DNA from: Brachyhypopomus gauderio
Lineage: Eukaryota > Chordata > Actinopteri > Gymnotiformes > Hypopomidae
Direction: 5' to 3'
Length of the DNA stretch: 64,000 nt
NCBI RefSeq assembly: GCF_052324685.1
Contig: NC_135218.1
Span: 10,874,516 to 10,938,515, forward strand
The translations under genes and the position numbers were made by a program. Under the pieces are notes generated by a model. It was not told where the DNA came from, ran no database searches, and worked only from the letters and a program-made list of their open reading frames with translations. Shown here one piece after another: positions 44,688 to 59,600 of this stretch (positions within the stretch are counted from its first letter, which is position 1; every line of letters starts with the position of its first letter).

Positions 44688-47600
44688 ATGATGCGCAAGA
44701 AGAAACGACCTGCGTCTGTCCCAGTGGATGATGGTCCAAACCCACTCCACGCGCCCAGTAAGTTGGCTGGCTAGAAATATTATGTTTACTAAATAATCTA
44801 CACGTGCTTTATTGAATAGATTTAGATTTATGGTGTAATGTGCATGACAAATGTGTATTGTGTTCACCCAGAATCTAAGAAGAAGTCCAGCACACGGCCC
44901 AGAGTATCTGCTCCTGATGAGGTTCCTGACTCTGTCTTCGTACAAATGCTACGACAATCTGGTATCACCTTGAAGCATGGCAGCATGTCTAATGAAATTG
45001 GTATGATGCTCCTGGGTTTAAGCATTTGCTGTGTCAAATTATACATTAAATGAATACTTATAAATAAATAAAAATAACCAAATGAGTAATGTATAGGAAA
45101 AATAAATACATGCAGTTCTCTGAGTGTATTGTTTTTGTCTTAAATAGCTGTAGACCAAGTTGTGTTTCAGAAGAGACTGGAACAACATCTGAGAAAGAAT
45201 CCCAGATATCCCAGTGTAAGTGTGCATTTGCAAACGTTCTGCCAGTCGCAGGGTTGTATTGTGCACATATTGTGTTTCAGTGGATTGGCGTTCATGTTCT
45301 CCACTCTCAGATACTGAAGGAGTTCATATCTGGCCTGGAGGCTCACATTGAAGACCCTGAGAGGTTTAGGAACTGCTTGCTCCCCTCTGTGCCTCGGTCT
45401 GCAGGCGAGGGAGAGACCAGGTAACGTGTGAAATGCCGTGTAGTTCTTCCGCTAAAGACGCATTCATGTTGTGTAACGTAATGCTGGGGAGGTAATGTGG
45501 TTTTCTTCTCATCTTATGTGTTTTTGTGTTTTCTCTGTGCGCCTCTCTTCTACAGTTCCAGCTCATTCCAGGAGAGCCTGGTGCGACTGCTTCTCGGTGT
45601 AGAGATGATACAGGTGACTAGTGGACTAGATTTCACATACAGCCTTCTGGAGTTCTCTGTTTTTCTTACTCGTAACTCATTTTAACTGGGCAACTTTCAA
45701 TTTGTGCTTTTCTTGTAGACCCTGGTCATAAACACTTTGTTTGAGAAGCTTCCAGAGTTCATGATTGAGGGGTAGGTCTTTGCCATGTCATTGCTGACTC
45801 TTGATAAAATCTCCTGTCTGTCTGTCTTGGATGAATTTCCTGTTTGTACATGTAAAGTGTGTTCAATAGCGAGATCATTGTCTGCCTGGTTTTATTAGTC
45901 CATGGCCAGATGTGTGCCATACACCATTTCCCCTCTCAGTTTGTGGTCGACCCCATACCCCGTACCCTAGCATGCTGTAGTCATTGGATGTAATTGGCTG
46001 TTTCAGTGTTGGAGATGATGGCCTTAACATACCACACCTCATCATAACTCAACTGAAGTGGCTCAATCGAGTTGTGGATTGCAAGGTTTGTAGCTTTCCT
46101 TCTGTAGCGTTGACTAGCTTCTTCCTGACTCATAAAATCAGGAGGTCACGCAGGATAATCTTGATATAAGCCAGGTCAGCTTTATTGCCATGACACACCA
46201 CATACAAAGTACATAGAGATGACGTAGTGTGTATCCAGGATGGCATGTCAGTTTCAACAGCAAGACAATGAAAACAATCAATGGGCTGATTTTGTGCAAA
46301 GACACGTAAACAAAGTGAACTGAAGTGCCTGAATAAAATTTTGAAACCTTTTGGAAAATCTTAATAGCTCTGGGGGGAAAAAGCATTTTAGTATCTGATC
46401 ATATAAATCCAACTGAAATCATGAATCAATCAGCTCTATCTGGTAAGACAGCGTTGCTATGCTAAGGTGTGTGTGTGTGTGTGTGTGTGTGTGTGTGTGT
46501 GTGTGTGTGTGTGTGTGTGTAAACAGGATTTGGCCTGTAAGTTGATGCAGTTGGTGTCTGTGGCTCCTGTGGAGATCCAGCGGGACATCATTACCAGTTT
46601 GCCCGAAATCCTAGAGGACTCCCAGCATGACGACATGGCCCGAGAGCTGAAGTAAACACTCTCATCTAGCCTCTCCTTCACAAACGTCTTTAATGCTTCC
46701 TCCTTTATTGTCGTCCTCACCCCCCTCTCTTGGTGAGAGACTAACATGTGGCCCTCTACCCAGTGCCCTGCTGAAGGAGAACACCCAGCTCACTGTGCCC
46801 ATCCTGGACGCCCTGTCCAGCCTCAGTCTCAGCTCAGCACTCCTGGCTGAGGTATTCCCACCACCACTGCACCTACTTCACGAGCTTGACCTCTTCAATC
46901 AGAACGTGTTGGCTGCTTGGTTCTACTGCTTTACGTCCCTTGCCTGTCTCACTCCGCCTGTGTTTCGGTGTGTGTGTGTTCAGGTGCGGGGTGCCGTCAT
47001 GGCCACCGTCTCCGCGGTGCGGCTGGAAGATCTTCCCGTCGTGGTGAAGTTCATCTTGCACTCCATCTCCGCTTCTGATGGCGTCGAGGTCAGTGGGTGC
47101 TACGCTTGCGCGTGGAAGCACACGTGTGTGTGTGAGGAACATACTCTAGCTTCTCGTTAACGTGTGCGTGACGTGTAGGTGGTATGGGACTTGCGTAAGA
47201 AGCTGGATCTGGAGCAGTGCATGCTGCCGTCTGTGCTGCAGGCCTCCCAGAGCCATGAGAGGAGTCAAAGGTGAGCAGGACGCCGTGGTCTTGTGCTCAC
47301 TCCCTCTCTCACTCCCTTTCTCATTCCCTCTCACTCTCTGACTCTGCCTCTCTCACCCGTAGTCTGTGCTCTTCTGCCCTGAGCCATGGCTCACTCTATG
47401 GCCACTAGGCGTGTTAACACCCATCTCCTTTGCCAGGTCCTCCGCTGTCCCATCATGCAGCAGTAAGGACAGCGTGGCTCTGGTGCTGGAGGTGATCAAG
47501 TCGGCCGTGCGCTTTCAGAAGACCACGTCTGAGGCGTGGCTCAAGGTGAGTGTGACACTAACCCGCTCACACTAACAAGCTCACACTAACGCTTATGTTC

Positions 47601-56600: not shown

Positions 56601-59600
56601 CACCCGCGGCTCAGTAACGTGTGTGTGTGTGTGTGTGTGTGTGTGTGTGTGTGTGTGTGTGTGTGTGTGTGTGTGTGTGTGTGTGTGTGTGTGTGTGTGT
56701 GTGTGTGTGTGTGTGTGTGTGTGTGTGTGTGTCGTGTTTGCAGGCAGACCTTCCTGGTGTACTACAAGGTTCTGATGGCGGAGCTAGAGAAGAGCGTTCG
56801 CAAGCTGCCTCCAGGAAGACAGACGGACAGCAAAGAGGTGTGTGAGTGTGTGAGTGAGTATGTGAGTGAGTGTGTGAGTGTGTGAGTGAGTGTGCGTGTG
56901 TGAGTGGCAGGCATGAAAATCTGTCACCTTTCTGCGAAATTCGCCGTTTTGAAGTTGAAAAGAGGGACCTATGCGAATCGTGTAGGTCCGAGGAGTTTTT
57001 TTTGGGGGGGGGGGGGGGGGGGGGGGGATATTTTATAGATATATTATATTATCATATTGACTTAATAAGCAAACAGAGCACTTCTGAAATCGGCAATTTC
57101 AATGACACAGTGGCCAGCAATTTCCGCCCAGATCCATCATCGAGGCAAAATTGCGTTTCAATCATACCAACGTTGTCCATTCATGTTATTCGCTAAGCGG
57201 GACAAGAGGCAGGACCTAGTGCTATCTACGCCGGGGACAAGTCAGAAGAGCGTACATTTACCACTACATTTACCAGATCGTACATTTACCACTACGTTTA
57301 CCAGATCGTACATTTACCACTACGTTTACCAGATCGTACATTTACCACTACGTTTACCAGATCGTACATTTACCACTACGTTTACCAGATCGTACATTTA
57401 CCACTACATTTACCAGATCGTACATTTACCACTACGTTTACCAGATCGTATATTTACCACTACATTTACCAGATCGTACATTTACCACTACGTTTACCAG
57501 ATCGTACATTTCCCAGTGGATTTAATTGGGTGATTAATGGTTTCAATCGTTTTCATATTTTGCGGTAAAACAAAGTTACTGCCGTTCGCTACAGCGTTGA
57601 ACACTGTCAGAGCCACAAGCTCTTGTGATAAATAGGTAGACAGATAGGCCTATTAAGTTCGCCTCAACGCCGTGTAGTTAACGGTGACATAAAATAAGAA
57701 ACAAGATTGTTTTTTCTAGTGTGTCTGTAGTTGTAACTGGTGAATCCAGGGATGTGTGAGGAGAACATTCGCTGAAAAGGTTGAAGATGAAGTTGTAAAC
57801 TCTTGTCATTTGATAGACTACCCTGTGCTTTAGCCCATGTTAGAATCCTTTTGTGACTAAATAAAAACATGTGAACCCTGGTATTTTTTAACACTAATTT
57901 TCGCCGCTGATGTATTTATTGGTTCATTAAGACATAATGGTTTTGACTGAGCCATCTGGAATGGTGAAAGCGGCTTCTCGCGTTTATGGATCTTGCTCCA
58001 TCCATTGACGAGACAGGTCAATATTTTTCAGAAGTCAACAGGGAAGACATGCGTTTCAATGGACTACTCTTCTTACTCGCACCTCTCGAAGTTAAAATAT
58101 TTTTTTTAAACTCTGAATCTGTCCGTGTCTGAATGTATTATGTTTAGTATCTCTATGTTCAATGGTTCAATTATTATTGTTCACTTCTTAATAAAATATG
58201 GACAGCACAAGATGCATGTGATGTGTGAGTGAACAAAGCTGGTTGTATATAGGGTGGCCACTTTTCAGTATTGCTTTAATTGCTTTAATTTTGATTAATT
58301 TAGGTATTTTTACTATTATGGATTTGATTATATATATATAATCTTCTCACCTTTTTAACCCCTGACCCATTTTCATGTCTGGAGTGAGTGTGAGTGAGTG
58401 TACGTGTGCGTGTGTGTGAAAAATGACTGGGTATGTGCATGCGTGTCTGTCGATTTCCTAACAGGTGCATATGCTCAGTGCCTTGTGCTCATTTGGTGAT
58501 ACAGACATGAGTAATGATCCTCACGTGGTTCTACAGGTTCAGAGTGAAAAACTCCTGACGTGGAACTTGGCTGTGCGGAATTTCCACATCCTTGTTAACC
58601 TGGTCAAGGTACAGAGTCACATGACCTTTCCATGAGACCTTCTGCTTTAACCTGCGCACGTTTCACAGTTCTCCATCTCCTTTGTTGAATCATGCACCAA
58701 AGTCACTTGCTGCCTGTTTGTATTAAGATAATGTAACAACAGGGCACATCTGACCTAAAAGACTAGGGCATACTAACTCACTCTTTTGACCTTCTCTCTA
58801 AAGGTTTTCGACAGCAGACCTGTTCTCGGTGTGTGTTTAAAGGTGAGCACTGTACATAAGCGCACACAAAGTTAATAAAGGCTACTTTTTACATTTTCGC
58901 TGCAGGTGAGGTGGAAGAACTAGTTTTCACTGTGTGGTTTTCTTTATTCCAGTATGGCCGGCATTTTCTGGAGTCCTTCCTTAAGTTAGGAATGCCCCTG
59001 CTGGACTACAGCTTTAAGAAACACAAGGTATCTGTGCTCTGTTCACCAGTGGCATGCCTTCTTGGTTTGGAATGGTGGTCACAGCAAGAAACCCATTGAG
59101 CCACTAATGCCCAGGAAGGCCTAATTGAGCATTGTAACAGGTGTGTCTGTTGGGCGTATCTCTCTCAGGAGGATGTTCAGGGTTTGCTGAAGACGTTCCA
59201 GCTGAGCACCAGACAGCTTCATCACATGTGTGGTCACTCAAAGGTTAGCCAGCAATATGTACTGGTTGTGCTTTGCTCCAGGGTCTTATGGGATAGGTAT
59301 GATGCAGCACTTATCAGAGTTATAGGTTTTTTTTTAAGGCTTGTAGTTGTGTGTTTTATTTATTTTCTTTTCCAGTGTGGTCCATGCTTTGCCTTTTAAT
59401 GTCACTGATCCCCACTGGCATGATGTAAATGTTGTATGTCCCACCCACACGCAGACTAGCATATATATGGGTTTTATCTTCTATAATTAAAAGTCTTAGA
59501 TGAATGTTTTTACATGGGGTGTTTCAATAACAATGAAACCTTGTGCTTACTGGAAGGTCAGAGAGGTCACTGACATTCTAAATCAGTAGCTGTTTCATGT

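Follow-up and report, generated by a model that had tools for sequence, protein, structure and literature searches.

TG-repeat acceptors of fancd2 in Brachyhypopomus gauderio: a probable repeat-rich case of a wider intron class

Why does a single DNA-repair gene carry TG microsatellites directly upstream of many of its exons: are they part of a shared splicing control that depends on array length, or are they tolerated as ordinary intron ends? The locus that raises this question lies in a stretch of 64,000 nt from Brachyhypopomus gauderio (NC_135218.1, positions 10,874,516 to 10,938,515), called the window here. The fancd2 coding region occupies 44691–61579 of its plus strand in a hand-built model of 43 coding exons, which gives a 4,326-nt CDS and a product of 1,441 aa with one terminal stop. 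In a phmmer search against the PDB, the product forms a single collinear alignment to FANCD2 (6tni_A, which we take to be the chicken protein; query 22–1425, 1,591 bits), and human-type FANCD2 entries cover query 17–1439. Because the product aligns as one stretch, the exon edges are sound. All TG-preceded exons fall within the collinear part, and the exon numbers of an earlier note on this DNA are the coding-exon numbers of the model.

TG acceptors are defined here by an array of at least eight TG units that ends within 30 nt of the exon. Eight of the 42 fancd2 acceptors carry such an array on the plus strand, with (TG)9 to (TG)56 stopping 3–28 nt upstream. Long arrays stand before exons 8 (46527–46651; (TG)26 at 46468–46519, 7 nt), 16 (49275–49406; (TG)24 at 49224–49271, 3 nt), 22 (51237–51386; (TG)20 at 51194–51233, 3 nt), 24 (52984–53099; (TG)32 at 52914–52977, 6 nt), and 36 (56744–56837; (TG)56 at 56620–56731, 12 nt), as the earlier note had described. 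It had added exon 15 (49004–49138) to this group, which does not hold in the same form: the compound TG/CG/TTTG tract before this exon (48836–48999) has only (TG)7 next to the acceptor (48982–48995, 8 nt), and its (TG)30 (48836–48895) ends 108 nt upstream. The array of exon 20 (50360–50479) was rightly placed somewhat further away, as (TG)52 (50228–50331) stops 28 nt before the exon; it begins 12 nt past the 5′ splice site and occupies most of the 144-nt intron. The shorter TG-rich acceptors claimed for exons 10, 26, 27, 32, and 33 are also found, with (TG)9 at 53394–53411, 7 nt before exon 26 (53419–53520), (TG)10 at 55967–55986, 26 nt before exon 33 (56013–56146) and followed by a short pyrimidine-rich stretch, and short TG-rich ends at the other three. 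The intron before exon 15 is counted below as the ninth TG intron. The acceptor in use is the first AG past the array. Pyrimidine content at −20 to −4 is 0.41–0.53 for exons 8, 15, 16, 20, 22, 24, and 26 and 0.59 for exon 36, which bears out that a normal pyrimidine tract is absent at several of these exons.

The TG arrays are mirrored by CA arrays at the 5′ ends of introns 23, 27, and 29, which the earlier note had not mentioned. On the plus strand, (CA)25 lies 35 nt past the 5′ splice site of intron 23 (52132–52181), (CA)10 lies 37 nt past the 5′ end of intron 27 (53865–53884), and (CA)9 lies 17 nt past the 5′ splice site of intron 29 (54826–54843). A scan of introns 27 and 29 found no TG array of at least five units in either. 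The three CA arrays suggest a described class of fish introns.

Chance placement does not account for this orientation bias. When each array was placed at random inside its own intron, p was 1.5e-5 for eight of the nine TG arrays lying no more than 30 nt from the 3′ splice site and 0.001 for all three CA arrays lying no more than 40 nt from the 5′ splice site. In the whole genome, (TG)14 occurs as often on one strand as on the other (816,428 and 821,350 places). Arrays of at least eight units number 21 TG and 19 CA in 79 kb of kinesin regions, and arrays of at least ten units number 22 TG and 15 CA in 200 kb of flanks, some N included. In one flank (L015), six of the seven (TG)≥10 arrays sit inside a minisatellite that has no visible coding exon.

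TG acceptors are not confined to fancd2. Outside it, 11 of 201 homology-anchored acceptors (5.5%) from kinesin, MCM, FAT, and CCT matches listed have (TG)≥8 within 30 nt, and only one of the same 201 has (CA)≥8; these acceptors were placed by the starts of homology matches, without full gene models. The families differ, with TG acceptors at 10/141 in kinesins among the matches listed and 1/20 in CCT, and none in the replication/repair-type exons sampled, MCM (0/31) and FAT (0/9). The kinesin sample used 141 acceptors, with 147 matches taken out of a tally of 153; single-exon copies (three) and matches that begin with the first residues of the profile (six) were dropped. For MCM, 3 of 34 matches were dropped, and for CCT 20 of 57 were used, chosen by E-value but passing over a few, which left out 37. 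At one CCT locus (L168), the array touches the match and the acceptor falls outside the slice. Since the sample is heterogeneous among families, a genome-wide statement rests on these four. Within the window, the usp4-like neighbour serves as a control: (TG)8 at 33906–33921 on the plus strand ends 6 nt before an exon (33928–34101), and, of ten acceptors of this gene read by eye, one carries a TG array (translation confirmed five of the ten). A kif5-like stretch (L151) has TG arrays at two of three acceptors and at one donor.

Since unrelated genes of this genome share the feature, it is not a peculiarity of fancd2 or of DNA repair. The earlier note had named an equal TG-acceptor frequency in most genes as a result that would overturn its reading, and this holds in part: the feature does occur elsewhere, but fancd2 (8/42, 19%) is about 3.5 times richer than the sample (Fisher p = 0.007). 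Compared with kinesins alone, the difference is weaker (Fisher p = 0.028, or 0.074 when the limit is set at 60 nt). Such an enrichment is unremarkable for one gene picked out of a genome. TG acceptors look less like a DNA-repair switch than like a general fish habit of making splice sites out of simple repeats, and the earlier interpretation as a whole is partly supported.

The reading that we consider likely is that fancd2 is a repeat-rich case of a wider intron class of this fish, in which the 3′ end is formed by (TG)n instead of a pyrimidine tract. The array, which is half U and contains no A or AG, would serve, or be tolerated, as the AG-free stretch between an upstream branch point and the splice site. 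The TG-preceded exons would most likely be constitutive and free of a dedicated control, with growth or shrinkage of the arrays largely tolerated. The lengths of the AG-free zones are consistent with this mechanism: the median is 89 nt in TG introns vs 29 nt in other introns (p = 0.0016), and the AG exclusion zone reaches 54–207 nt in eight of the nine TG introns, that of exon 26 being 25 nt. Because the arrays lack A and AG, the closest A that is 15 nt or more away from the exon is found at −47 to −171 for exons 8, 15, 16, 22, 24, 33, and 36, compared with a median of −21 in other introns; exon 15 has an A at −6 and the next one upstream near −170. Human distant-branch-point exons, as described in PMC1431707, likewise have a long AG-free stretch before the acceptor (reference value well beyond 40 nt), which implies an unusually distant branch point; in fancd2, however, the zone is a simple repeat. 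Against this reading, a branch-point consensus shows no enrichment beside the arrays: of 19 stretches upstream of A-free tracts, each up to 28 nt long, 5 contain yUnAy, compared with 43% of random intron 28-mers.

A tentative alternative, which overlaps this reading, is that the arrays are passive microsatellites. They would form where the 3′ end is rich in T and G and be retained because TG does harm close to a 5′ splice site, as CA does close to a 3′ splice site, and they would have no role in splicing. The genome is rich in both kinds of array, and purifying selection by itself could give the orientation bias. At exons 8, 16, 22, and 24, however, there is no pyrimidine tract and the array stands as the sole tract, which makes its irrelevance unlikely. 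Additionally, random placement at an array density measured in kinesin regions only predicts about 1.4 TG acceptors in 181, whereas 10 were observed (about seven-fold enrichment), and arrays located on a 5′ splice site in L151 and in L038 indicate that TG at donors is not strictly barred.

Regulation of the kind first proposed appears unlikely. UG arrays would recruit TDP-43 and/or CELF with an occupancy that rises with array length, and several fancd2 exons would be repressed or tuned together. A known parallel is the (TG)m(T)n acceptor of CFTR exon 9 in intron 8, which has about 11–13 TG units and belongs to the TDP-43 target class. The fancd2 acceptors share the adjoining TG array, the possible length variation, and the target class, but their arrays reach 56 units, mostly lack a T tract, and occur many times in the gene. 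The richness of fancd2 over the sampled genes speaks for regulation, as does the fact that loss of exon 8, 24, 33, or 36 (125, 116, 134, and 94 nt) would change the frame. According to PMC11163724, the consensus of TDP-43 consists of UG repeats, and an excess of TDP-43 makes constitutive exons skip. The human data lean the same way, as Gooding et al. 2006 (PMC1431707) describe alternative splicing as more frequent among exons that have long AG-free zones. Against it stand the TG acceptors of unrelated genes and the place of the TG exons in the conserved core protein, part of which they encode. An enrichment of frame-preserving lengths or weak donors was also ruled out: lengths divisible by three occur in five of nine TG exons vs 16 of 32 other fancd2 exons, and the 5′ splice sites of TG exons are no weaker than others in the gene. 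By these measures, the TG exons do not resemble a set of cassette exons.

It is doubtful that partner-free (UG)n is a true substitute for the polypyrimidine tract in this fish, recognised by a UG-binding factor rather than by U2AF2 and used with a far-upstream branch point, and that in genes with many such tracts, fancd2 among them, array lengths jointly tune the amount of full-length mRNA, such that microsatellite variation would set DNA-crosslink-repair capacity.

AC-GT introns of zebrafish were reportedly treated by Lin et al. in 2016 in Genome Res. 26:12-23. In fancd2, only intron 23 combines (AC)n at its 5′ end with (GT)n at its 3′ end; the other eight TG introns lack the (AC)n. The predicted fold of intron 23 contains a long CA-UG helix (MFE −396.9 vs −326.9 ± 8.4 in 20 shuffles, z = −8.3), and its arms pair better than any of 100 control segments. 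In the model, (CA)25 near the 5′ splice site would pair with (TG)32 and draw both splice sites together, which fits an AC-GT bridged intron for intron 23 alone. That all TG arrays are bridged in this way, by CA arms elsewhere in the pre-mRNA, is very improbable: the intron 23 fold, the CA arrays of introns 27 and 29, and a kinesin intron stretch with (CA)11 and (TG)31 (L152) favor it, but the within-intron duplexes of the other eight are ordinary (equalled by 20 to 82 of 100 controls), and a TG arm is missing from introns 27 and 29. Pairing of every TG array with a CA arm of its own intron was likewise ruled out by the eight of nine that do not exceed controls, and the mechanism reported in zebrafish therefore covers one fancd2 intron only. 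As described in PMC6093180 and PMC9198270, the end repeats of zebrafish introns pair with each other and do without U2AF. The teleost fancd2 resembles them in having (GT)n before the 3′ splice site and (AC)n close to the 5′ one, both arms being present in intron 23, and differs in that eight of nine TG introns lack the AC arm and introns 27 and 29 have only the AC arm.

If TG-only acceptors work without an AC partner or U2AF2, about 1 acceptor in 18 in the four families sampled would be a non-textbook 3′ splice site made of the most mutable kind of DNA. Repeat length would then open splicing to variation between individuals, and such exons could escape gene finders whose training relied on pyrimidine tracts. 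fancd2 offers many natural cases within a single transcript, in which intron 23 provides the matched AC-GT control.

Intron 29 additionally contains a copy of exon 39, which stays open in frame for 22 codons and then reaches TAA.

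A hand-built model of fancd2 places the coding region at 44691-61579 of the window, with 43 coding exons and a coding sequence of 4,326 nt whose single stop is terminal. The 42 introns sum to 12,563 nt (median 169.5 nt), and the product aligns in a single phmmer stretch with FANCD2 in the PDB (6tni_A; query 22-1425, 1,591 bits). In this model the exon numbers of the earlier note are coding-exon numbers and its coordinates are correct. The TG arrays that it described at the acceptors are likewise confirmed, as at least (TG)8 ends within 30 nt upstream of the exon in 8/42 introns (exons 8, 16, 20, 22, 24, 26, 33, 36). 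Exon 15, which had been listed with them, has a TG-rich acceptor, but the adjoining array is only (TG)7; before that array comes a compound TG/CG/TTTG tract of ~160 nt, whose (TG)30 lies 108 nt away, and the exon is counted apart. When every array is placed at random inside its own intron, the chance that 8 of 9 TG arrays would end up no more than 30 nt from the 3′ splice site is 1.5e-5. CA arrays, absent from the earlier note, take the opposite end: all three (introns 23, 27, and 29) lie no farther than 40 nt from the 5′ splice site (p = 0.001, same test). Among fancd2 arrays of at least eight units, no CA array is found at any 3′ end, and only intron 19 has a TG array close to its 5′ end; there the array occupies nearly the whole intron (144 nt).

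A TG array contains neither A nor AG, and therefore the first AG past the array is the one used in all nine TG introns (the eight and that of exon 15), while the nearest A is pushed upstream. Counting only A residues 15 nt or more from the exon, the closest position is -62, -171, -54, -47, -74, -56, and -127 for exons 8, 15, 16, 22, 24, 33, and 36, compared to a median of -21 in the other fancd2 introns. It is near normal at exon 26 (-27), and the branch point of exon 20 may be ordinary, because a CTGAT follows the array. Since the branch-point consensus is not enriched beside A-free tracts (5/19 vs 43%), a distant branch point is predicted from base composition.

The earlier note named the frequency of TG acceptors elsewhere in this genome as a test of shared regulation. 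In the assembly (796.5 Mb; the window is C8:10874516-10938515), both strands carry (TG)14 equally often (816,428 vs 821,350 places, overlapping places counted). Background exon starts were anchored by Pfam matches to kinesin motor (141 used of 147 taken among the matches listed), MCM (31/34), FAT (9/9), and CCT (20/57), and an uninterrupted array of at least (TG)8 ending no more than 30 nt upstream was scored. Such acceptors occur in 10/141 kinesin starts among the matches listed, 0/31 MCM, and 0/9 FAT (10/181), and in 1/20 of the CCT matches used. The total of 11/201 (5.5%, 95% CI 2.8-9.6%, kinesins among the matches listed) is to be treated with caution as a single genome-wide rate, because the sampled families differ. 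By the same test (CA)≥8 is found at 1/201, and (CT)≥8 and (GA)≥8 at 1/181 and 0/181 of the kinesin, MCM, and FAT starts. TG acceptors are thus present elsewhere, but fancd2 is richer (8/42, 19%; Fisher p = 0.007, binomial p = 0.0018; Fisher p = 0.028 against kinesins alone) and lies at the rich end of the range. With a 60-nt limit the background is 14/181 and the Fisher p becomes 0.033 (all 181) or 0.074 (kinesins); the enrichment is no strong evidence of gene-specificity, because this is one gene singled out post hoc among all those of the genome.

TG acceptors are also seen in individual genes. In a usp4-like gene of the window (USP4 is the best PDB match; 10 acceptors read by eye, five checked via translation), (TG)8 lies 6 nt before the exon at 33928 and (TG)14 41 nt before that at 33014. 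The kif5-like stretch L151 (C8:23815095-23815740) carries arrays of at least (TG)11 before 2/3 acceptors, and (TG)22 directly on a donor (GAGAAG|GTGTGT...). Three kif5-like genes, L087/L150 (C3; a fragment of L087 has kinesin-1 heavy chain as a PDB match), L039 (C19), and L136/L151 (C8), all have a TG acceptor at the intron that precedes the DMNEHSSRSH exon; two others, L038 and L036, lack it there. As this exon differs at 20/41 third positions between L087 and L039, the acceptors are suggested to be very long-lived or repeatedly gained at the site.

Further arrangements were observed in these stretches. In L151 and L038 the array begins at the 5′ splice site itself (GAGAAG|GTGTGTGT..., (TG)22 and (TG)42). 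In L039 a TG-array acceptor is present in tandem together with 36 nt of its exon, immediately 5′ of the kinesin match that starts at profile position 193; this may reflect a repeat-mediated duplication or an assembly error. The flank stretch L015 has a minisatellite at 1890-2490 of acceptor-like units, in each of which a TG array leads into a TTCTCTTCTTCTGTGTGTGCAG-like end.

Intron 23 of fancd2 has arrays at both ends, (CA)25 35 nt past the 5′ splice site and (TG)32 6 nt before the exon. A long CA-UG helix joins the intron ends in the predicted fold (MFE -396.9 vs -326.9 ± 8.4 for 20 shuffles, z = -8.3), and 0/100 control segments pair with the array as well. The abstract of Lin et al. 2016 reportedly gives 10% of genes for the zebrafish AC-GT class. 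In zebrafish, a GT tract ahead of the 3′ splice site is reported to base-pair with an AC repeat that follows the 5′ splice site, sparing U2AF (PMC6093180, PMC9198270), in about 10% of introns (PMC6093180). Intron 23 has the same arrangement and is filed, on anatomy alone, as a member of this class. The other eight TG introns resemble it but lack the AC arm: their arrays are unaccompanied within their own introns, where pairing is no better than in controls (20 to 82/100 as good). They also resemble the CFTR intron 8 acceptor, but without the T tract. The literature searched, which excludes most subscription papers, contained no account of TG-only fish acceptors, and no priority is claimed.

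Judged from the sequence, the TG exons are probably constitutive, their arrays being tolerated and taking the role of the tract. That the arrays are passive microsatellites, a reading that overlaps with this one, is a lesser possibility. Coordinated, length-dependent control of fancd2 by the arrays would be improbable: alternative splicing is commoner at human exons with long AG-free zones (PMC1431707) and excess TDP-43 can make constitutive exons with short UG motifs skip (PMC11163724), but frame-preserving lengths are not enriched (5/9 TG exons vs 16/32 others) and TG-exon donors are no weaker (median score 2.9 vs 2.8).

The gene is generally repeat-rich, since long minisatellites also occupy introns 12, 22, 28, and 36 (47555-48287, 51623-51992, 54239-54682, and 57247-57515). 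The model uses a GC donor at 53828 for intron 27 (ACAG|gcacga), with (CA)10 also near this 5′ end. Part of coding exon 39 (58953-59027), together with its acceptor, recurs in diverged form within intron 29 at 54899-54967; the first 54 exon bases are 40/54 identical and the likeness stops beyond. A gene resembling glutathione peroxidase lies on the minus strand at 43830-44040; its reading frame contains a TGA at 43928-43930, the place expected for the selenocysteine of GPX1-type enzymes. On the plus strand, 62308-62563 holds the start of a gene that is presumably TEX264-like.
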